A stretch of DNA of 64,000 nucleotides, taken from NCBI GenBank assembly GCA_958295735.1, contig OY282369.1:1348161-1412160 (forward strand), in the 5' to 3' direction. Position numbers and translations under genes: made by a program. The notes below the pieces were generated by a model. The model was not told where the DNA came from. It did no database searches and was given only the letters and a program-made list of their open reading frames with translations. Shown piece after piece: positions 24,965 through 36,357 of the stretch (positions are counted from its first letter, which is position 1; the number at the start of each line of letters is the position of its first letter). Source of the DNA: an uncultured Candidatus Cenarchaeum sp. GTDB taxonomy: Archaea > Thermoproteota > Nitrososphaeria > Nitrososphaerales > Nitrosopumilaceae.

Positions 24965-26023
24965 CGGAGCCTTTCCCCCGCCGCCCTCCCGGCCCGCGGG
25001 GCCCTGCCCGGCGCCGGCCTGGTTGCGCTGGGGCAGATCCGGGCCCCAGCCGCCGGCCGCCCTCTCCAGGATCAGCGCGTCCGCCTCGGGCACCGTCCTC
25101 ACCCCCCTGAACAGGGTCTCGTAGTCCGCGAGCCCCTTCGAGACGCCCCACACCTCGACCACGTCGTCGGCGATCAGCAGCCCCTCCCTGTCCAGCTCGT
25201 CCAGCCATTCGGCCACGTCCTCCGAGTCCGGCTCGTAGTGGGCTATCACGTCGTCGGTCGCCGTGCCAAAGTCGCCGTACTGCGTGCCTATCCGAATCAT
25301 GTACGCGTCCCCGTGCAGGTGCTTTTCCACTTGGTTGATCCGGCCCTTGAAGTGCACGATGCTGCCGGCATGCGCCTCGCCTCCGGCCATCAGGGACTCG
25401 TACGGGATCGCGGCGGCGCCGCGCTTTATCTCGTCCGCGGAGAGCCCGCCGGCGTCCTCCGGGGGGCGCTCCCGCGCGTCCTCCGCGGAGGTCAGCAGCG
25501 CGAGGCCGACCACCGCCGCGATGCAGGCGGCCAGGAGGGCCGCTCCCAGAACGAGCGTCTTGCGCGCCCGCGGCGGATCCTTGTTCCTGAGGCACGCCCA
25601 CGCTATCGCGCCCCCCAGCAGCCACAGGAATATCGGCAGCAGGTACCACGCCATGCTGGATCTGGGCCGCGGCGGCCCGGGCGGCCCGCCGGCGCCCTGC
25701 CGCGGCGGCCCGCCGGCGCCCTGCCGCGGCGGCCCGCCGGCGCCCTGCCGCGGCGGCCCGCCGGCGCCCTGCCGCGGCGGCCCGGGCGGCCCGCCGGCGC
25801 CCTGCCGCGGCGGCCCGGGCGGCCCGCCCGCTCCGGCTCCGGCCGGGCTCTCCCGCCCCAGCCTGCGGAACTGCGCCTCCACGTACGCCCAGTCGCCGTC
25901 GTAGACGGTACCGCCGTCAGCCAGGCGGCGCCGCATCTCGGAAAGCCTCGCGGCATCTCCCTCCTCTATCACGAGCAGGGCGTCGATCATATCCAGCAGC
26001 GCGCCGCTGCCGCGTCCTGCCAC
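24941..26023 (-). CDS. Membrane protein with SHOCT-like N-terminus, Pro/Gly linker and two helices
   Basis: A 360-residue protein of unrecognised function. Residues 1-55 form a short helical oligomerisation-like domain (LVIEEGDAARLSEMRRRLADG). Residues 60-115 are a repeated GAGGPPRQ linker encoded by tandem 24-bp units. Two membrane helices follow (YLLPIFLWLLGGAIAWAC and a second near 150). The C-terminal 200 residues look soluble and strand-rich (VHFKGRINQVEKHLHGDAYM). GTG at 26023 is 26 bp after a minus-strand CTATTAGC box (about 26045-26052). An OB-like nucleic-acid or ligand-binding role for the C-terminus is possible but unproven. Confidence 0.7.
   Translation of the reverse strand: MAGRGSGALLDMIDALLVIEEGDAARLSEMRRRLADGGTVYDGDWAYVEAQFRRLGRESPAGAGAGGPPGPPRQGAGGPPGPPRQGAGGPPRQGAGGPPRQGAGGPPRQGAGGPPGPPRPRSSMAWYLLPIFLWLLGGAIAWACLRNKDPPRARKTLVLGAALLAACIAAVVGLALLTSAEDARERPPEDAGGLSADEIKRGAAAIPYESLMAGGEAHAGSIVHFKGRINQVEKHLHGDAYMIRIGTQYGDFGTATDDVIAHYEPDSEDVAEWLDELDREGLLIADDVVEVWGVSKGLADYETLFRGVRTVPEADALILERAAGGWGPDLPQRNQAGAGQGPAGREGGGGKAPLPPGPRL
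25675..25835 (-). repeat. Coding Pro/Gly tandem repeats (24-33 bp units)
   Basis: Units containing GCCGGCGCCCTGCCGCGG repeat about seven times with small insertions of GGCGGCCCG, forming the linker of the membrane protein. Confidence 0.85.
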
Positions 26024-27170: not shown

Positions 27171-27416
27171 GGAGAAATCGGCCGGCCTGGACTATTAAGA
27201 GGCTACCGCGGCGCGGGGCCGCACGCCCGCGGGCGACAGCCGCGCGGTCCCGCGTAGCCGGTTCCTCCGGGCAAAACTCTCCGGCTTTTCGCTACCCGAA
27301 GCGCTGCCCGGTGCGCCCGCGCGCAGCGGGACTCGTGCAGGGAACGGCGGTCGGCTCCCGACTAGGCCGCCGGGGGCGGGACGGGGAGCGGGCCGGAGAG
27401 CGGCAGGGGTTGCGCG

Positions 27417-27566
27417 GCGGGGGCCGGGCGGCATCGCGCGGCGGCTGCCCGCGGCGGGGGCCGGGCGGCATCGCGCGGCGGCTGCCCGCGGCGGGGGCCG
27501 GGCGGCATCGCGCGGCGGCTGCCCGCGGCGGGGGCCGGGCGGCATCGCGCGGCGGCTGCCCGCGGC
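27417..27566 (+). repeat. 37-bp tandem repeat, four copies
   Basis: The GGCATCGCGCGGCGGCTGCC unit recurs at a constant 37-bp spacing (GCAT at 27431, 27468, 27505 and 27542) with no visible divergence and no spacers, so it is a simple tandem array rather than a CRISPR. Confidence 0.9.
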
Positions 27567-27626
27567 GGGGCAGCTCCTAAAAAATAGCTTTCTGCGGCCG
27601 AAAACCGGCAAGTTTTTAGCCAAAAT

Positions 27627-27712: not shown

Positions 27713-29308
27713 GTGGCGGAGCTCAGCGACTTTGGCATAGCCATCGCGGCGTTCATAGCGCTGACGCTCGTGGTGGGCGTGCTCGCCGGGAAGCTGGTCA
27801 AGCAGAGCGGCAGGAGGCTGATCGTGGCGGGGAAGAGCCTGCCGCTGGCGATGGTGGGGACGATGCTCGCGGCCCAGGCGGTGGACGGCAACTCGACCCT
27901 CGGCAACGCGGCGCTCGTGTTCGAGTTCGGGTTCTGGGCCGGCGCCGTGGTGCCGATCGGCTTGGGGGTGTGCCTGCTGATAACGGCGGCGTTCTACGCC
28001 AAGCCGCTCAACAAGATGGTGATGATCACCCTGCCCGACTTTTACTTCAGGCGGTACGGCAACGGCGCGGAAGGCATCTCTGGCGTGCTCATGATCATCA
28101 GCTTCACGGTGCTCGTGGCGGGAAACCTGGCCGCCAGCGGGTTCATACTGGAGACCGTGTTCGGGATCGACTACTTTTGGGGGATCCTCTTCTCCGCCCT
28201 GGTGGTGGTGGCGTATACCATAGCGGGGGGGCTCTTCGCGTCCGCGTACACCAACCTGTTCCAGGTGTACCTGGCGATAGGGGCGTTCTGGGTGGGGTTC
28301 CTGTTCTTCGCCGGGGGCTTCGCGGGCGTTCCGTGGGACTCGATCTACAGCGCCGCCCCGCCCGGCTACCTGGACCTCTCGGGGCTGTTCGACATAGGCA
28401 ACGGGGCACTGATAAACTGGGCCGCCATACTCGCGCTGGGCCTGGGGGACATAGTGGCGCTGGACTTTATGGAGCGGGTCTTCGCGGCGAAGAACCCGAA
28501 GACCGCGCGGCGGGGCGCGCTCATGGGCGGCGCGCTGACCCTCTTCACGGTGGTGCCCACCAGCATGCTGGGGATAGTGGCCCTCTACTACCTGCCGGGG
28601 GACACCCTTCCCAACCTGACCCTGCCGCTGCTGGCGACGGAGCACCTGCCGTTCGCGATAGGCGCCGCCATCCTGATGGGCGTGATAGGCGCATCCATGT
28701 CGACGGCGAGCGGGGGGCTGCTGGCCATATCCAGCGTCGTGTCGCGGAACCTGGTCACCCGGATAATCCGGAGGCGGTGGATGGGGAGGCCGGGAACCAA
28801 CGACAGGACGCTTCTCGCCATGACCCGGGTGGTGATAATACCCATGATGATAGCGGGCACCGCGCTGGGGTACTTTGTGCCCGCCCCCGGCGTCTACCTA
28901 GTGCTGGCGTTCGACATCATGTTCGCCGGGGCCTTCGCGCCCCTGACCCTCGGCCTCTTCTGGAAGAAGGCCAACATGCCCGCCGCGATCGCCGCGCTGC
29001 TGATCGGATCGTCCCTGAGGCTGTCGTTCTTCTTCACGATGCCCGAGGAGTGGGCCGGGCTGGACACCATGATCCCGCCGGTGGTCTCGTTCGCCGTATT
29101 CATCGCGGTGGCGCTGGCGACGCAGGGAAGGTACCCCGGCAAGGCGCGGCACGACGTCAGGGACTACGTGCCGCCGGAGGAGGACCTCGTGTCGGGCGAG
29201 GATCTCAAGCACTTCCGCAGCGACTTCATGAGCTCGGGCTTCGACGTCGAGGATGCCGGCCGCGGCGGCGGCGGGGGGGACGCCCCCAAGAGCCCGATAG
29301 GGGCCTGA
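27713..29308 (+). CDS. Sodium:solute symporter (SSS family)
   Basis: A 531-residue transporter with about 13 membrane helices typical of the SSS family, which couples solute uptake to the Na+ gradient. Recognisable segments are AAQAVDGNSTLGNAALV in helix 2, YTIAGGLFASAYTNLFQ, and the sodium-site region GASMSTASGGLLAISSVVSR. The substrate is not readable; urea (DUR3-type), amino acids or polyamines are options. GTG at 27713 is 26 bp after ACTTAAATAA. Its promoter shares a CGTACTTTAC box with the ureohydrolase operon, which favours a nitrogenous solute. The C-terminus has a glycine-rich cytoplasmic tail. Confidence 0.9.
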   Translation: MAELSDFGIAIAAFIALTLVVGVLAGKLVKQSGRRLIVAGKSLPLAMVGTMLAAQAVDGNSTLGNAALVFEFGFWAGAVVPIGLGVCLLITAAFYAKPLNKMVMITLPDFYFRRYGNGAEGISGVLMIISFTVLVAGNLAASGFILETVFGIDYFWGILFSALVVVAYTIAGGLFASAYTNLFQVYLAIGAFWVGFLFFAGGFAGVPWDSIYSAAPPGYLDLSGLFDIGNGALINWAAILALGLGDIVALDFMERVFAAKNPKTARRGALMGGALTLFTVVPTSMLGIVALYYLPGDTLPNLTLPLLATEHLPFAIGAAILMGVIGASMSTASGGLLAISSVVSRNLVTRIIRRRWMGRPGTNDRTLLAMTRVVIIPMMIAGTALGYFVPAPGVYLVLAFDIMFAGAFAPLTLGLFWKKANMPAAIAALLIGSSLRLSFFFTMPEEWAGLDTMIPPVVSFAVFIAVALATQGRYPGKARHDVRDYVPPEEDLVSGEDLKHFRSDFMSSGFDVEDAGRGGGGGDAPKSPIGA

Positions 29309-29504: not shown

Positions 29505-31187
29505 GTGAAATACCCCGACCTGTTCAACCCGGACCTCTCGCGGGTGGGCACGCGCGAGTCGCAGGCGTACAACATCGCCGCCGCGCGGCTCATGGCGGAG
29601 ACCGTAAAGACGTCGCTGGGGCCGCGGGGCATGGAAAAGATGCACGTGGACATACTCGGGGAGGAGACCATAACAAAGCACGGCGGGGCGTTCCTGCGCA
29701 AGGTGGACGTGGACCACCCGGCCGCCAAGGCGGTGGCGGAGGCGGTGAACGCGGTGGACACGCACGTCGGCGACGGGACCGTCTCCGCGGCCGTCCTCAT
29801 CGGCTCCATGCTGGGGCACTCCCAGGACCTGCTGAGGATGGGGCTGGCTACCGCCGCGATAATCCGGGGGTTCGAGGCGGCCATGGGCTTTGCGCTGGAG
29901 GCGCTGGAATCGGTCAGGATGGCCTCGGACCGCGCGGACCGCGCGCTGGCCCGCCAGCTGGTCGACACGTGCCTGGCGGGGAAGGCCGTGTTCGGCGCGC
30001 CGGCCGACAGGGCCGCGGTCAGGGACGCCATCGTGGAGTCGGCCCGCCTCGTCGCGGGCCCCGCGGGGGCGATCGACGTGGACGACGTCAAGATAGAGGA
30101 AAAGCAGGGCGTGTCCGCGATCCAGATGGTCATGGGAACCGTGATCGACAAGCCCATAGACGACGGCGCGATGCCCCGCGAGATCAGGAACGCGAAGGTG
30201 CTGCTGCTCAACGACTCGCTGGAGGCGGAGCGGACGAAGACGGAGTCCGAGATAGAGATAACGTCCCCGTCCCAGATGGGGGAGTTCGCCGCCCGGCAGG
30301 ATGCCGACGCGGCGGCGCTGGTGAAAAAGGTCGTGGACTCGGGCGCCGGCGTGGTGATATCCCGCAAGGGGATCGGCGATCTGGCCAGGGAGGGCCTCGC
30401 CCGCGCCGGCATCATCTCCATACGGAGGGTGAAATACAACGACCTCTGGTGGCTTGAAAAGGCGACGGGGGCCAGGACGTGCGAGTCCGTGGACGCGATC
30501 TCCGCCGGCGAGCTCGGCCTCGCATCCAGGGTGTGCGAGCGGGCGGTCGGGGGCGACCGGATGCTGTTCGTGGAGGCGGACGACCCGCGATCCGTCACCC
30601 TGCTCCTGCGCGCCGTCTCGAAGCGGCACCTCGACGAGTTCCACCGCACGGCAAAGAACGCGCTGTTCGTGCTGCGCAACTTCGCGCGCAGCCCGTTCGT
30701 GGTGTTCGGCGGCGGGGCGTGCGAGGCGGCGGTGGCGCGCGCCGTGCGGGAGAGGGCCGCCGAGCTGGAGGGCGCCGAGCAGCTCGCCGCGGGGCGGTTT
30801 GCGGACGCGCTGGAGGAGATACCGATGACGCTGGCCAGGAACGTGGGGATGAACACGCTGGATGCCCTGCCGATGCTGAGGTCCAGGTGCGCCGGCCCGG
30901 CCGGCCGCGCCGGCCGGTACGGCGTCAACTCGGATTCGCGGAAGATCGAGGACATGTCGTCCAGCGGGGTGGTGGAGACCTCCGCGGTGAAGGAGCAGGT
31001 AATCAAGACCGCCGCGGAGGCGGTCAACATGATACTGGGAGTCGACGACGTGTTCATGAAGGACCTCATAGACAACACGCACTGCCACATCGACGGGACG
31101 GTCCACGCGCACAAGGATCCGGGGAAGAACCACAACCACTGGGAGCAGGAAGGGCTGGAGCAGCGGCAGATGCACCACTACTACTGA
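29505..31187 (+). CDS. Group II chaperonin (thermosome) paralogue with altered ATPase residues
   Basis: A 560-residue TCP-1/thermosome homologue by its overall sequence: TVKTSLGPRGMEKM, VGDGTVSAAVLIG, FGGGACEAA, and the late GVNSDSRKIEDMSSSGVVE. Two key acids differ. The NDG motif reads TKHGG (H59 where Asp is expected), and the hydrolytic Asp of the usual DAL motif is Asn (KNALFV, N385). GDGTT is GDGTV. The C-terminal tail is histidine-rich (HCHIDGTVHAHKD, ending HHYY) in place of the usual Gly-Met tail. GTG at 29505 lies 26 bp after CTTAAAAATT (29476-29485). It may be a non-hydrolysing subunit or a specialised, possibly metal-binding, chaperonin. Confidence 0.9.
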   Translation: MKYPDLFNPDLSRVGTRESQAYNIAAARLMAETVKTSLGPRGMEKMHVDILGEETITKHGGAFLRKVDVDHPAAKAVAEAVNAVDTHVGDGTVSAAVLIGSMLGHSQDLLRMGLATAAIIRGFEAAMGFALEALESVRMASDRADRALARQLVDTCLAGKAVFGAPADRAAVRDAIVESARLVAGPAGAIDVDDVKIEEKQGVSAIQMVMGTVIDKPIDDGAMPREIRNAKVLLLNDSLEAERTKTESEIEITSPSQMGEFAARQDADAAALVKKVVDSGAGVVISRKGIGDLAREGLARAGIISIRRVKYNDLWWLEKATGARTCESVDAISAGELGLASRVCERAVGGDRMLFVEADDPRSVTLLLRAVSKRHLDEFHRTAKNALFVLRNFARSPFVVFGGGACEAAVARAVRERAAELEGAEQLAAGRFADALEEIPMTLARNVGMNTLDALPMLRSRCAGPAGRAGRYGVNSDSRKIEDMSSSGVVETSAVKEQVIKTAAEAVNMILGVDDVFMKDLIDNTHCHIDGTVHAHKDPGKNHNHWEQEGLEQRQMHHYY

Positions 31188-31793: not shown

Positions 31794-32315
31794 ATGCCGG
31801 GCAAGGGGTACTCGACCATCGGCCTCAAGCCCAACGTGCTGTCCATGCTGCAGAACCTCACCGACATGTTCTACCCCGGCATGTTCCTGCCCAGCACGCT
31901 GATAATCCTGATGCACGAGGTGAGGCTGGAGCGCTACTCCGTGGAGATGCGCAGGATGAGGATCGACCTCTCCGGGAGGTACCACACCCTGACCATACGA
32001 TCCGACGTGAAGGAGTGGCTGAAGGAGAACCACGAGGGGCTCGCGGACGACTACAAGAAAAATTACAGCGTGAAATGCTTTTCCAACTTCGTGAGCTACT
32101 TTCTGGCCAACCTGCTGGAGTCCAAGATAGACTCGCAGAGGAACGTGATCAGGCTCAAAGAGTCGGACTTTAGCTGGCTGCAGGAGGAGTACGACCAGCG
32201 CAGGAAGAGCGCCGCGGCGGGCGCCGACGTCGGATCCTTCGAGCGGTTCGCCGACTCCTACATCAACGATCTGCTCAGGAAGATGAGGGAGGCCCGGGCG
32301 ATACTCGCGGTCTGA
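31794..32315 (+). CDS. Conserved hypothetical protein, 173 residues
   Basis: A soluble, mixed helix/strand protein with balanced charge: LSMLQNLTDMFYPGMFLPST near the start, then RIDLSGRYHTLTIRSDVKEW, a middle helix SNFVSYFLANLLESKID, and a charged C-terminal helix. The AT-skewed codons around KKNYSVKCF hint at conservation. ATG at 31794 is 26 bp after CATATAAC (31764-31771). I recognise no domain; the look is of a lineage-conserved thaumarchaeal protein, possibly a DNA- or protein-binding adaptor. Confidence 0.75.
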   Translation: MPGKGYSTIGLKPNVLSMLQNLTDMFYPGMFLPSTLIILMHEVRLERYSVEMRRMRIDLSGRYHTLTIRSDVKEWLKENHEGLADDYKKNYSVKCFSNFVSYFLANLLESKIDSQRNVIRLKESDFSWLQEEYDQRRKSAAAGADVGSFERFADSYINDLLRKMREARAILAV

Positions 32316-32395: not shown

Positions 32396-32647
32396 CTAGA
32401 GCGGAGTCATGGTATCGATCAGCCTCGCGTTGGTGACCCTGCCGCTTTTTTCCTGGATCTCGAGGTCCACGGTATGCTTTAGGCCGTCGAGCATGAAATT
32501 GACCTGCACGTCCCACGCCTCCCTCGGGCCCTTTTCGGGAATCTGGAAGGTCTCGTTCACCCTAAAGTCCGCGACCTCGCCGTACAGGGCGCCGACTACC
32601 CTCCTCGATTCCCTGTAGATGTCCTCCGTCGTAGTGACCAGCACCAT
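32396..32647 (-). CDS. Small conserved protein, 83 residues, in the CGTACTNTAC regulon
   Basis: Predicted alpha/beta fold: TTTEDIYRESRRVVGALYGE, then DFRVNETFQIPEKGPREAWD and two strands (VQVNFMLDGL and HTVDLEIQEKSG). No domain is recognised. ATG at 32647 is about 26 bp from a minus-strand TTTTTATATC box (32670-32679), and a CGTACTGTAC box lies 48 bp upstream of the start (32695-32704). That links its control to the symporter and the ureohydrolase operon. It might be a sensor or accessory subunit, but there is no direct evidence. Confidence 0.75.
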   Translation of the reverse strand: MVLVTTTEDIYRESRRVVGALYGEVADFRVNETFQIPEKGPREAWDVQVNFMLDGLKHTVDLEIQEKSGRVTNARLIDTMTPL

Positions 32648-32718: not shown

Positions 32719-33951
32719 CTACCCGCCGGGCGCCCCGAAGCGCGGCTTTTTGCCGCGCCTGTCCAGCTTTTCCCGCACCCGCGACCTGTAGTATATGGCA
32801 GTCTGGTTGTCCGGCTCCTTTTCCAGCACCGAGTCGTAGCACGCGAGGGCCTCCTCGTGCCTTCCCAGCGACATGAGGATCTTTCCCTTGTAGCTGGCGG
32901 CGTACGCGTAGCCGGGATCCGCCTCCAGCGCCCTCTCGCAGTATTCCAGCGCCTCCGAGTACTTTCCGTCGTGCTCGAGTATCCAGGCCATGCTGCACAG
33001 CGCGCGGACGTTGGCCGGATCCAGGCGTATGGCGGTGTCGCACAGCGAGACGGCGGCGCCGCGCCGCTTGAGCGAAAAGAGCGACACCGCCTTGCTGTAC
33101 AGCGCGCGGACGTTGCGGGGATCCCCCTCCAGCACGCGGTCGAAGCACTCGACCGCCCTCCCGAACATGCCCGTCCTGTCGCAGACGAGGCCCTTCTCCA
33201 GCAGGGCCTCCGCGCATCCCGGCTCGATCTCCAGCGCCCTGTCGAACATCGCCATGGAGTCCTTGGCGGCGAACCCGGCCAGATCCAGCGTCCGGCCCTT
33301 GGCTACCAGGGCCCCGACGTTCTTGGGATCCAGCTCGAGCGCCTTGGAATAGCGCGCCATCGCCTCCTCGTGCCTGCCCTTCCCCGCCGCCTCCTTCCCC
33401 TCCTCGTAGAGCGCGCGCGACTGCCTCGCCTCCTCCTCGATCGCCCGGTCGAGGAAGGAGGCCGACTCGCGGTCCCGCCCCATCATGCCCAGGACCCGGC
33501 TCTTGCTGTACAGGGCCGCCGCGTTTCCGGGATGCTCCGCGAGCACCGCGTCCAGCATGCCCACCGCCTCCTCGTGCCTGCCCGTCTTGCCCTTGCAGAC
33601 CGCCATGTACGTGCGCGAGTCCGCGTGGCCGCCGTCGACGGCGAGCGCCCTGCCAAAGCACGCGATGGCCTCCTCGTGCCTGCCCAGCTTTTCCAGCGCG
33701 CGCCCCTTGTAGTGCGGGGCCTCGACGCTCTCCGGATCCGCCGCCGCGGCCGCGTCCATGCACTCCGCCGCCGCGGCGAACTCGCCCAAGTTGTACAGCG
33801 CCATCCCCCTGTGGGCGTGCGCCGCGGCGCACCCCGGATCCGCCGCCGCGGCCTTCCCGAAGCACGATGCCGCCTTTTTGAACTCGCCGTACTTTTCCCA
33901 GTACAGCCCCTCGCTTACCAGGGCGTCCCTGCCCCGCGGCTTGGTAAACAC
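32719..33951 (-). CDS. Tetratricopeptide (TPR) repeat protein
   Basis: A 410-residue protein made of about eleven 34-residue TPR units, e.g. EAIACFGRALAVDGG and YSKALELDPKNVGALVAKG, with the W/L-G-Y-A-P pattern positions conserved. TPR superhelices bind other proteins; there is no signal peptide or catalytic domain, so it is probably a cytoplasmic scaffold. The C-terminus is short and basic (RREKLDRRGKKPRFG). GTG at 33951 lies 26 bp after a minus-strand GATTATAAGC box (33972-33981). Partner unknown. Confidence 0.88.
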   Translation of the reverse strand: MFTKPRGRDALVSEGLYWEKYGEFKKAASCFGKAAAADPGCAAAHAHRGMALYNLGEFAAAAECMDAAAAADPESVEAPHYKGRALEKLGRHEEAIACFGRALAVDGGHADSRTYMAVCKGKTGRHEEAVGMLDAVLAEHPGNAAALYSKSRVLGMMGRDRESASFLDRAIEEEARQSRALYEEGKEAAGKGRHEEAMARYSKALELDPKNVGALVAKGRTLDLAGFAAKDSMAMFDRALEIEPGCAEALLEKGLVCDRTGMFGRAVECFDRVLEGDPRNVRALYSKAVSLFSLKRRGAAVSLCDTAIRLDPANVRALCSMAWILEHDGKYSEALEYCERALEADPGYAYAASYKGKILMSLGRHEEALACYDSVLEKEPDNQTAIYYRSRVREKLDRRGKKPRFGAPGG

Positions 33952-34088: not shown

Positions 34089-35204
34089 ATGGGGATGGAG
34101 TTCTACGGCGACGACTACCGCGGGGCCGACGTCGCGCCGTTCGTGGGAATCAACACGTTCCTCCACCTCCCGTGGGTGAGGACGCACAAGGAGCTGGTGG
34201 ATGCGAGGCCGGACGTGGCGATAATCGGCGAGCCGTTCGACTTTGGGACCACGATACGCCCCGGGGCCAGGTACGGGCCCCGCGCCCTCAGGGCCGCGTC
34301 CACCATACCGTCCCCGCCGTACGAGCGCTTCAACATAGAGACCGGGGCGGATCCCTTCGGCACCTTCCGGACGGTGGACTACGGGGACGTGCACGTCTCC
34401 CCCGGGGACGTCATAGAGTCGCACAAGAGGATGACGCACAAGGTCAAGGAGGTCCTGGAGCAGGACGGGATCCCCGTGATGCTGGGGGGCGACCACTCCA
34501 TCACGTACGCCAACGTGCGCGCCTTCGCCAAGAAGTACAAGAACATAGGCATGATCCACTTCGACACCCACGCCGACTGCGCGCCGCAGGGGCTGACCGG
34601 CTACAAGTACGACCACGGCGCGCACATACGGAGGATCATGGAGATCGGCTGCCTCAAGGGGCGGAACTATTCCCTCGTGGGGCCGCGGGGGTACTGGCCG
34701 GGGCCGGATCTGTACAAGTGGATGGCCGACCAGGACTTCCAGTGGTTTACGATGCTGGACGTGGAGGAGCTCGGCATAGACTACATCGCCAAGGAGATAG
34801 CCGACAGGGCCAACGACGGCACGGACGCCGTGTACCTGAGCTGGGACATAGACTCGTTCGATCCCGCGTACGCGCCGGGCACGGGCGAGCCGGAGCCGAA
34901 CGGGCTCACGTCGCGGGAAGGCATACGCATGATACGCCTGCTTTCGAAGTCGTTCGATCCGGACAGGTTCGCGATGGACCTGGTGGAGGTCGCCCCCGCG
35001 TACGACGTCAGCGACAACAGCTCGTACAACGGGGGGATCACGTCGGGGCTGGGGCAGAGGCTGGTGGTGGAGCTCCTGGCAGGCCTGTCGCTCACCAAGC
35101 GGGGGCTTGACGGGGGGAGCCCCGTGCGGCCCAACGACTACCGCGGGACGGGCCACACGTACAGCTTTGGCAGCCCGCGCGCGGAGATTCCCAGGAGGTT
35201 CTGA
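34089..35204 (+). CDS. Ureohydrolase (agmatinase/arginase family)
   Basis: A 371-residue binuclear-metal hydrolase that releases urea from a guanidino compound. Metal ligands are visible in GGDHS (H136), FDTHADC (D159, H161, D163) and SWDIDSFDP (two Asp). An N-terminal extension of about 45 residues precedes the usual start, and APGTGEPEPNGLTSRE forms the active-site rim. Substrate could be agmatine, guanidinobutyrate or guanidine. ATG at 34089 follows an AT-rich promoter with a CGTACTTTAC box. It overlaps the next gene (TGATG) and is followed by a urease-gamma-like gene and a nickel permease, so a nickel-dependent guanidine hydrolase is an attractive alternative to the Mn2+ agmatinase label. 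Confidence 0.9.
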   Translation: MGMEFYGDDYRGADVAPFVGINTFLHLPWVRTHKELVDARPDVAIIGEPFDFGTTIRPGARYGPRALRAASTIPSPPYERFNIETGADPFGTFRTVDYGDVHVSPGDVIESHKRMTHKVKEVLEQDGIPVMLGGDHSITYANVRAFAKKYKNIGMIHFDTHADCAPQGLTGYKYDHGAHIRRIMEIGCLKGRNYSLVGPRGYWPGPDLYKWMADQDFQWFTMLDVEELGIDYIAKEIADRANDGTDAVYLSWDIDSFDPAYAPGTGEPEPNGLTSREGIRMIRLLSKSFDPDRFAMDLVEVAPAYDVSDNSSYNGGITSGLGQRLVVELLAGLSLTKRGLDGGSPVRPNDYRGTGHTYSFGSPRAEIPRRF

Positions 35205-35578
35205 TGCGCATAAGGGTGACCGCGCGCGGTGACCCCGACGCGGCCCCGCTGGTCAGCGTGCTGGAGTTTCCCGGCCCCGACGACGACGTCTTCGTCGCGT
35301 CCGTGCGCCGCGTGCGGGACATGCTCCGGCGCAACCTGCGCATAAACATCAACGAGGCGATGCTGCTGTTCGCCGCGCACGCGGCGGCGTCCATGCGGGA
35401 CGGCGTGGCGGCGCGCGTGGCGCGCCGGCGCGCGCTGGATCTCCTCTCCGGGGATCAGGTGATGATCGGCGTCCCCGACATGATGCGCGCCGTGCGGATC
35501 GAGGTGGCGGCGGGCGGGGAGGCGCGCGCGGTGTCGCTGGAAAGGCCCATCGCGGCCGGCCCGCGCGCGGCTTCCTAG
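35204..35578 (+). CDS. Urease gamma subunit (UreA)-like protein
   Basis: A 124-residue protein. Residues 35-110 align with UreA: INEAMLLFAAHAAASMRDG resembles the UreA helix ending in ARDG, and DQVMIGVPDMM resembles DDVMEGVPEMI, followed by a strand and a terminal ERPI like the UreA HNPI end. The first 33 residues are a non-UreA strand domain. UreA has no catalytic residues and normally packs against UreB and UreC, neither of which is in this window. The ATG at 35204 overlaps the ureohydrolase stop, with AGGAGG 6 bp upstream. It may be a structural partner of the ureohydrolase or part of a split urease encoded elsewhere. Confidence 0.7.
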   Translation: MRIRVTARGDPDAAPLVSVLEFPGPDDDVFVASVRRVRDMLRRNLRININEAMLLFAAHAAASMRDGVAARVARRRALDLLSGDQVMIGVPDMMRAVRIEVAAGGEARAVSLERPIAAGPRAAS

Positions 35579-35580
35579 CC

Positions 35581-36357
35581 ATGGTGCTGGAAGGGGCGCT
35601 GGGGCAGGTCGGCGGCGGCCACCTCCTGCTCTTCTCGACGGGGCTGCTCTTGGGGGCGTACCACGCCCTCGAGCCGGACCACGTGGCGGCCATGCTCGCC
35701 CAGTCCGGGGGCCGCCGCGGCGCCCCCGCCGCCGCCGCGGCGCCCCGCCTCGCCGCCAGGATCCGCGCCGCCGGGGCCAGGAACTCCGTCCTCGGCGCGC
35801 TGTGGGGGCTCGGGCACACGTCGGCGATCCTCCTGGTGAGCCTGCTCGCGTTCGCGCTCTCCCTGGCCGTCCCCGCCTCCGTGTTCGAGGGATTCGAGGT
35901 GCTGGCCGGCCTGGTGCTGGTCGCGCTCGGCGCCGCCGCGTTCTCGGGCAGGGGGCTGCCGCGCGGGCGCGGCCACCGGCATCCGCACGCGCACGAGGAC
36001 GGCACGCTGCACACGCACCCGCACGGCCACGGGAAGGGCGGCCACGCGCACGGCCACAGGTCGTACCTGATCGGCTGCCTCCACGGCGTGGCCGGGAGCG
36101 GGGCCCTCGTCGCGCTGACCGCCTCGGCGCTGGACGGGATCCACTCGGTGCTCCTCTTCGTGCTGGTCTTCTGCGTGGGATCGGTCCTGAGCATGACGGC
36201 CGCCAGCGGGATGCTCTCCGTCCCGTTCGCGCTGGCCGGCGGGGCGAGGCGGCTGGGGGCGGCCGTGCGGGCGGCGGCGGGGGCCGCGGGCGTGGCGATC
36301 GGCGCGTACGTGGTCTGCGCGGTCCTGGCCGGCGCCGGCCCGCTCGGCCTTTCCTGA
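35581..36357 (+). CDS. UreH/NiCoT-type nickel permease
   Basis: A 258-residue membrane protein with about six helices. Helix 2 carries YHALEPDHVAA, the HX4DH nickel/cobalt motif, and LWGLGHTSAILLVSL and CLHGVAGSGALVAL are the second and third family signatures. A long histidine-rich loop (HRHPHAHEDG, HTHPHGHG) sits between helices and could bind metal. UreH-type proteins supply Ni2+ to urease. Here the gene starts 2 nt after the UreA-like stop, forming an operon with the ureohydrolase, which implies that the operon's enzyme needs nickel. Confidence 0.88.
   Translation: MVLEGALGQVGGGHLLLFSTGLLLGAYHALEPDHVAAMLAQSGGRRGAPAAAAAPRLAARIRAAGARNSVLGALWGLGHTSAILLVSLLAFALSLAVPASVFEGFEVLAGLVLVALGAAAFSGRGLPRGRGHRHPHAHEDGTLHTHPHGHGKGGHAHGHRSYLIGCLHGVAGSGALVALTASALDGIHSVLLFVLVFCVGSVLSMTAASGMLSVPFALAGGARRLGAAVRAAAGAAGVAIGAYVVCAVLAGAGPLGLS

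Follow-up and report, generated by a model that had tools for sequence, protein, structure and literature searches.

An arginase-family ureohydrolase (UREO), a protein with the fold of a urease gamma subunit (UREAL) and a NiCoT-like nickel/cobalt permease are encoded together in ammonia-oxidizing archaea (AOA), and this cassette is the core of a larger conserved locus that is apparently undescribed, as no account of it was found in the open-access literature. The locus is read here, with a probability of about one half, as a dedicated AOA system that takes up and hydrolyzes guanidine or some similar small guanidino compound, in which UREAL would be the assembly or metallation partner of the hydrolase. 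In the window, which is the whole stretch of 64,000 nucleotides that was analyzed and comes from a genome of 3.17 Mb in a single contig, very probably that of an ammonia oxidizer, the three genes lie head to tail on the forward strand at positions 34089-36357. They are UREO (371 aa, 34089..35204, +), identified by PF00491, an orthologue alignment, solved relatives and a tree, UREAL (124 aa, 35204..35578, +), identified by PF00547, a family profile, an AF2 model and Foldseek, and the permease (258 aa, 35581..36357, +). The ATG of UREAL and the TGA of UREO overlap by one base, which implies translational coupling, and the permease starts 2 nt past the UREAL stop. A first-pass annotation had proposed three coupled genes at this site with the same two junctions; both junctions were confirmed, and the arrangement is recurrent across AOA.

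What that annotation overlooked is an SSF-family sodium:solute symporter, a thermosome with a His-rich tail and the conservation of the locus throughout the lineage. ORF clustering across loci revealed syntenic extras, all present in the window: the symporter, a probable substrate importer (27713..29308, +; PF00474, synteny), the thermosome (group II chaperonin) paralogue with its His-rich C-terminal tail (29505..31187, +; PF00118, tail alignment), a 173-aa protein that lacks a Pfam match (31794..32315, +; clustered in 28 loci), an 83-aa protein with a non-significant JAB/Mov34-like Pfam match, E=0.066 (32396..32647, −; 31 loci), and a TPR protein, identified by TPR Pfam matches and divergent from UREO (32719..33951, −; 32 compared loci). 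Neither a guanidine riboswitch nor any other Rfam match was found between 24 and 40 kb in the window, a match to RyhB being sub-threshold. The window also contains two perfect GC-rich tandem repeats, at 25680-25784 (24 bp x 4.4) and 27413-27570 (37 bp x 4.3).

The distribution of the locus was determined in 300 genomes of the AOA order, using raw counts and co-occurrence P values that ignore shared ancestry. UREO is present in 73 of the 300, about a quarter, a 74th match (G098) being left out of the count as a distant relative (38%). UREAL is found in 62, every one of which also encodes UREO, and with the same profile its matches score at least 99 bits while those of true UreA reach at most 68, a clean separation. 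Urease alpha is present in 61 of the 73 UREO genomes compared with 44 of the other 227. The neighborhoods of UREAL in 20 related genomes repeat the order UREO-UREAL, mostly with the permease next, and the adjacency of UREO and UREAL, with or without the permease, extends to Nitrosopumilaceae-like genomes, Nitrososphaeraceae-like genomes and a third family. Recurrence of the cassette in over 60 genomes indicates that the arrangement is not due to chance. UREAL is undetected in 11 of the 73 UREO genomes, in some because of contig ends and in others because it is truly absent; at one such locus (L077) the permease directly follows UREO, and at another (L069) a transposase-like remnant does so. 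The permease is itself absent beside UREO in several orthologous loci, hence neither it nor UREAL is strictly needed. For relatives from beyond the order the sampling covered plasmids, where haloarchaeal UREO orthologues have neither UREAL nor the permease next door and no UREAL match was detected. A search of genome contigs yielded one UREAL relative, interrupted by masked bases, and no viral relatives of UREO were found when these were looked for.

This pattern bears on the idea, which we consider quite unlikely, that UREAL belongs to the UREO oligomer as a stable structural subunit, making UREO a hetero-oligomeric ureohydrolase. The start/stop overlap, the compact, well-predicted fold and the fact that UREAL never occurs without UREO would all suit such a subunit, and metformin hydrolase does have two subunits, though both are ureohydrolases (PMC11399263). 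However, UREAL is fast-evolving, with a mean pairwise identity of 36% compared with 85% for UREO, which would be unusual for a tight stoichiometric interface, and the UREO genomes that truly lack UREAL argue in the same direction.

Most members of the arginase family use Mn2+. UREO is assigned to the family by PF00491 (273 bits, cut-off 22, E=3.6e-81), and its orthologues, which are 75-95% identical to the window copy (mean column identity 89%), keep the start MGMEFYG. The dimetal ligands H136, D159, H161, D163, D253 and D255, checked through the motifs GGDH, DxHxD and DxD, are intact and invariant in 30 orthologues. An AF2 model of UREO reached a pLDDT of 57, the alignment being too uniform, and was left out of the analysis. 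Precedents are the nickel-dependent guanidinase GdmH of Synechocystis and the comammox guanidinase of Nitrospira inopinata, with which UREO shares the arginase family, the signature Thr and His and the GTGxPEP active-site loop. To be called a guanidinase in published work, an enzyme must have Thr105, His222 and Trp313 in N. inopinata numbering (PMC11410670). The first two of these correspond to T55 and H176 of UREO, whereas the Trp position is occupied by E267, a Glu that is invariant in 30 AOA orthologues and is also found in 3 haloarchaeal ones; among the solved relatives compared, guanidinobutyrase, guanidinopropionase and proclavaminate amidinohydrolase have Thr at this position. In the tree, AOA UREO and the haloarchaeal plasmid orthologues (49-51% identical to UREO) form one clade (support 100/99) and the guanidinase clade stands apart (100/100). 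The Glu for Trp and the separate clade thus place UREO outside the described guanidinase clade.

These two features, together with a guanidinobutyrase (3nio) as the best single PDB match of UREO, would also agree with a possible though unlikely alternative, in which UREO acts with Mn2+ on another guanidino substrate (4-guanidinobutyrate, 3-guanidinopropionate, methylguanidine or agmatine) and the nickel permease supplies urease alone, urease being a nickel enzyme with which UREO co-occurs. One point against it is that an agmatinase-like paralogue is encoded separately, by another arginase-family gene, which is located at 3.10 Mb and is closest to 3pzl, annotated as an agmatine ureohydrolase; this makes an agmatinase role less likely for UREO, and that UREO is the core agmatinase was judged unlikely. 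In a 2024 survey for which the guanidinase Trp was mandatory, no guanidine-degradation genes were reported in AOA (PMC11410670) and the trait was scored as missing in archaea; according to one study, most AOA have 2-3 copies of speB (PMC10753782). The UREO-type copies of AOA have likely been filed as agmatinase.

Further indications of the substrate come from the symporter, which matches PF00474 with E=2.5e-27 and is found in loci around UREO. It is 38-39% identical to symporters encoded beside ureohydrolases in haloarchaea and Rubrobacter, and the haloarchaeal and Rubrobacter symporters are 57% identical to each other. Close relatives of the Rubrobacter symporter came from seven plasmid records only, with a ureohydrolase alongside in all seven. 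The enzyme by the symporter is of the Glu type in Haloarcula, Halalkalicoccus and Natronorubrum (where the symporter is a fragment a few kb away) and of the Trp type, that is, of the guanidinase clade, in Rubrobacter indicoceani and Nonomuraea, the Rubrobacter enzyme matching the N. inopinata guanidinase with E=1.9e-160. The Rubrobacter cluster also includes formamidase and urease genes, and a urease operon adjoins the symporter-ureohydrolase loci of both Rubrobacter and Natronorubrum. That one symporter subfamily is common to Glu-type and guanidinase-clade loci favors guanidine or a close analogue, by association only, and speaks against a Mn2+ enzyme for some other guanidino substrate. Judged from sequence, guanidine is a plausible substrate of UREO. 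The earlier suggestion that the organism feeds on guanidine or agmatine is retained as plausible for guanidine, through the shared transporter subfamily and two of the three signature residues, while agmatine is the less likely of the two given the separate agmatinase-like gene. In Haloarcula marismortui, plasmid pNG700 (L085, 2881-5803) carries a formamidase and a divergent TCP-1 chaperonin whose tail contains His (GEHDHAHAA) near the symporter and the Glu-type ureohydrolase, and a formamidase likewise adjoins the Trp-type enzyme in Rubrobacter (L086).

The link to nickel rests in part on the permease, which was assigned from a family alignment together with weak NicO and RcnA matches. Its score against PF03824 NicO is 12.3 bits, below the cut-off of 27.7, and its orthologues (21.1-21.5 bits) are also below. 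Within an HX4DH motif at residues 28-34, H28, D33 and H34 are invariant in 17 aligned family members, as are the histidines of a His-rich loop at about residues 130-160, so that the original call of a nickel permease is upheld by motif and loop, though not by the Pfam gathering cut-off. The location of this gene in the apparent UREO/UREAL operon, and not with ureABC, argues against a permease that serves urease only. Bacterial Ni-dependent ureohydrolases are accompanied by HypA/HypB-like chaperones and sometimes by a HupE permease (PMC11399263, PMC12186494), and the genes of the Ni-dependent metformin hydrolase are followed by a HupE-type nickel permease too (PMC11399263), while the N. inopinata guanidinase is without a known HypA/HypB-like chaperone. 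Of the genome search for ureABC and hypAB that had been recommended, the part for ureABC recovered a complete set, and the part for HypA gave no match over the cut-off in the window genome or in 11 others. The AOA locus resembles the metformin/dimethylguanidine hydrolase operon (HypA, HypB, two ureohydrolases and HupE) in combining a ureohydrolase with a nickel permease of its own in one operon and in its link to urea metabolism, and it differs in having one ureohydrolase gene, a urease-gamma-like second protein and no HypA that could be found. The GdmH and N. inopinata systems, taken together, involve HypAB-like chaperones, ABC/APC transporters and a guanidine riboswitch, in contrast to UREAL, the NiCoT-like permease and the His-tailed thermosome of AOA.

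The thermosome paralogue (414 bits against PF00118, E=1.1e-123) is one of three thermosomes in the genome and the only one with a His-rich tail, whose motif THxHxDGTxHxH...HDH...HHYY is conserved among the 19 copies that were aligned. In the window copy the ATPase motifs deviate, with TKHGGA in place of TNDGAT and KNA in place of HDA, and N stands for the Asp at the catalytic position, an Asp that several Nitrososphaeraceae-like copies retain. A profile of the tailed thermosome matches 69 of the 300 genomes, and 67 of the 69 have UREO. The tailed chaperonin therefore tracks UREO and not urease alone, a further point against a Mn2+-dependent UREO. Metal-binding His-tailed chaperonins are described for bacteria, namely the GroES protein HspA of Helicobacter pylori, which binds nickel and serves nickel enzymes, and mycobacterial GroEL1, which binds copper. 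The AOA protein likewise belongs to a chaperonin family and has a His-rich C-terminus of the metal-binding type. It differs in being an archaeal group II chaperonin that is tied to a ureohydrolase locus, and its metal binding is putative. Of the nickel-dependent, guanidinase-like enzyme proposed at first, the nickel part is thus favored by the NiCoT-type permease, the His-tailed chaperonin and the lack of HypA matches, while the guanidinase part is weakened by the invariant Glu at the Trp position and the separate archaeal clade.

UREAL scores 34.1 bits against PF00547 Urease_gamma (cut-off 23.9, E=3.7e-8), and its family profile matches PDB urease gamma with E=1.7e-18. The structure prediction called for at the outset gave, for UREAL alone, a confident urease-gamma fold (AF2, pLDDT 93.5, pTM 0.87), and every one of the 18 best Foldseek matches of the model is a urease gamma chain or domain (4fur, TMt 0.80, E 1.9e-6). 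The UreA hallmarks MRDG, VMIGVPDMM and ERPI that had been noted are all there, except that ERPI, followed by 8 residues, is not strictly terminal. UREAL shares with UreA the fold, the C-terminal two thirds of the sequence and a VMIGVPE-type loop, and it differs by an extra N-terminal beta-hairpin (the alignment to UreA begins at the first helix), a divergent sequence, a ureohydrolase partner gene and the absence of UreB and UreC from the operon. The most conserved positions of the UREAL family are N48, E51, V86, G89-V90, P91, the acidic position 92 and P115, and the family alignment contains no conserved His or Cys, which suits a protein-protein adaptor but hardly a classical metal-carrying chaperone. 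The idea first put forward, a nickel ureohydrolase helped by a UreA-like protein, is the preferred one; as judged from its sequence, UREAL would more probably be a partner in assembly than a carrier of metal, and the candidate metal-binding capacity of the locus would lie in the loop of the permease and the tail of the chaperonin.

The absence of UreB and UreC beside UREAL, as reported at first, was confirmed, and a complete urease cluster, in which UreC, UreA, UreB, UreD, UreF and UreG are encoded together at about 1.288-1.296 Mb, lies ~93 kb from the UREO cassette on the same contig. A urease missing only its gamma subunit was looked for, and the urease found is complete, with its own UreA (141 bits), so that the UREAL locus is not a stray part of urease and the proposal that UREAL replaces a missing gamma subunit was rejected. 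A transposase-like ORF that looks like IS66 lies between ureA and ureF (L006 11022-12210; about 1291021-1292209 of G000:C1). It is highly improbable that UREAL instead serves the cell's urease as an alternative gamma subunit and is not a partner of UREO. Its homology and fold are clearly those of urease gamma, and the cassette is often close to the ure cluster in related genomes. However, all UREAL are in UREO genomes and adjacent to UREO wherever the locus was read, 44 urease-bearing genomes are without both UREO and UREAL, and the intact UreA remains 61-76% identical where UREAL relatives are 20-38% identical to the window copy. UreC is undetected in twelve UREAL genomes, a weak point, since several are incomplete and two still have UreD. 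In genus g60 (G196, G209, G239, G259 and G261), UREO and UREAL were found with no urease alpha detected, UreD being present in 2 of the 5 and assembly gaps being possible. An argument that urease-less UREO genomes prove the direct release of NH3 from guanidine was dropped, as several are incomplete MAGs and two have UreD. Sequence comparison supports UREAL as a urease-gamma paralogue and not the missing subunit of urease. In the third family, an intermediate UREAL (L075, 4504-4797) is 37% identical to UreA and 27% to the window UREAL, and a homologue closer to UreA is consistent with an origin of UREAL by duplication of urease gamma.

In the proposed system, the SSF symporter would import the substrate and the NiCoT-like permease, judged by its motif and family, would import nickel. 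UREO, putatively nickel-dependent, would hydrolyze the substrate to urea and an amine, or to urea and ammonia if the substrate is guanidine, and the separate urease of the cell would split the urea to ammonia, which would be oxidized. UREAL, detached from urease, would have been recruited to the assembly or metallation of UREO, taking the place of a HypA/HypB-type chaperone, while the His-tailed thermosome probably holds nickel near UREO, folds UREO, or both. It is proposed tentatively that AOA load a ureohydrolase with nickel independently of HypA, by means of UREAL and a His-tailed, ATPase-altered chaperonin, such that ammonia derived from guanidine is oxidized. If the roles proposed for UREAL and the thermosome are true, the locus would provide clear cases of a urease subunit taken over by a different enzyme system and of an archaeal chaperonin that handles metal. 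If the activity is real, it would mean a wider nitrogen diet for major nitrifiers, since about a quarter of the sampled genomes of the AOA order carry the locus.
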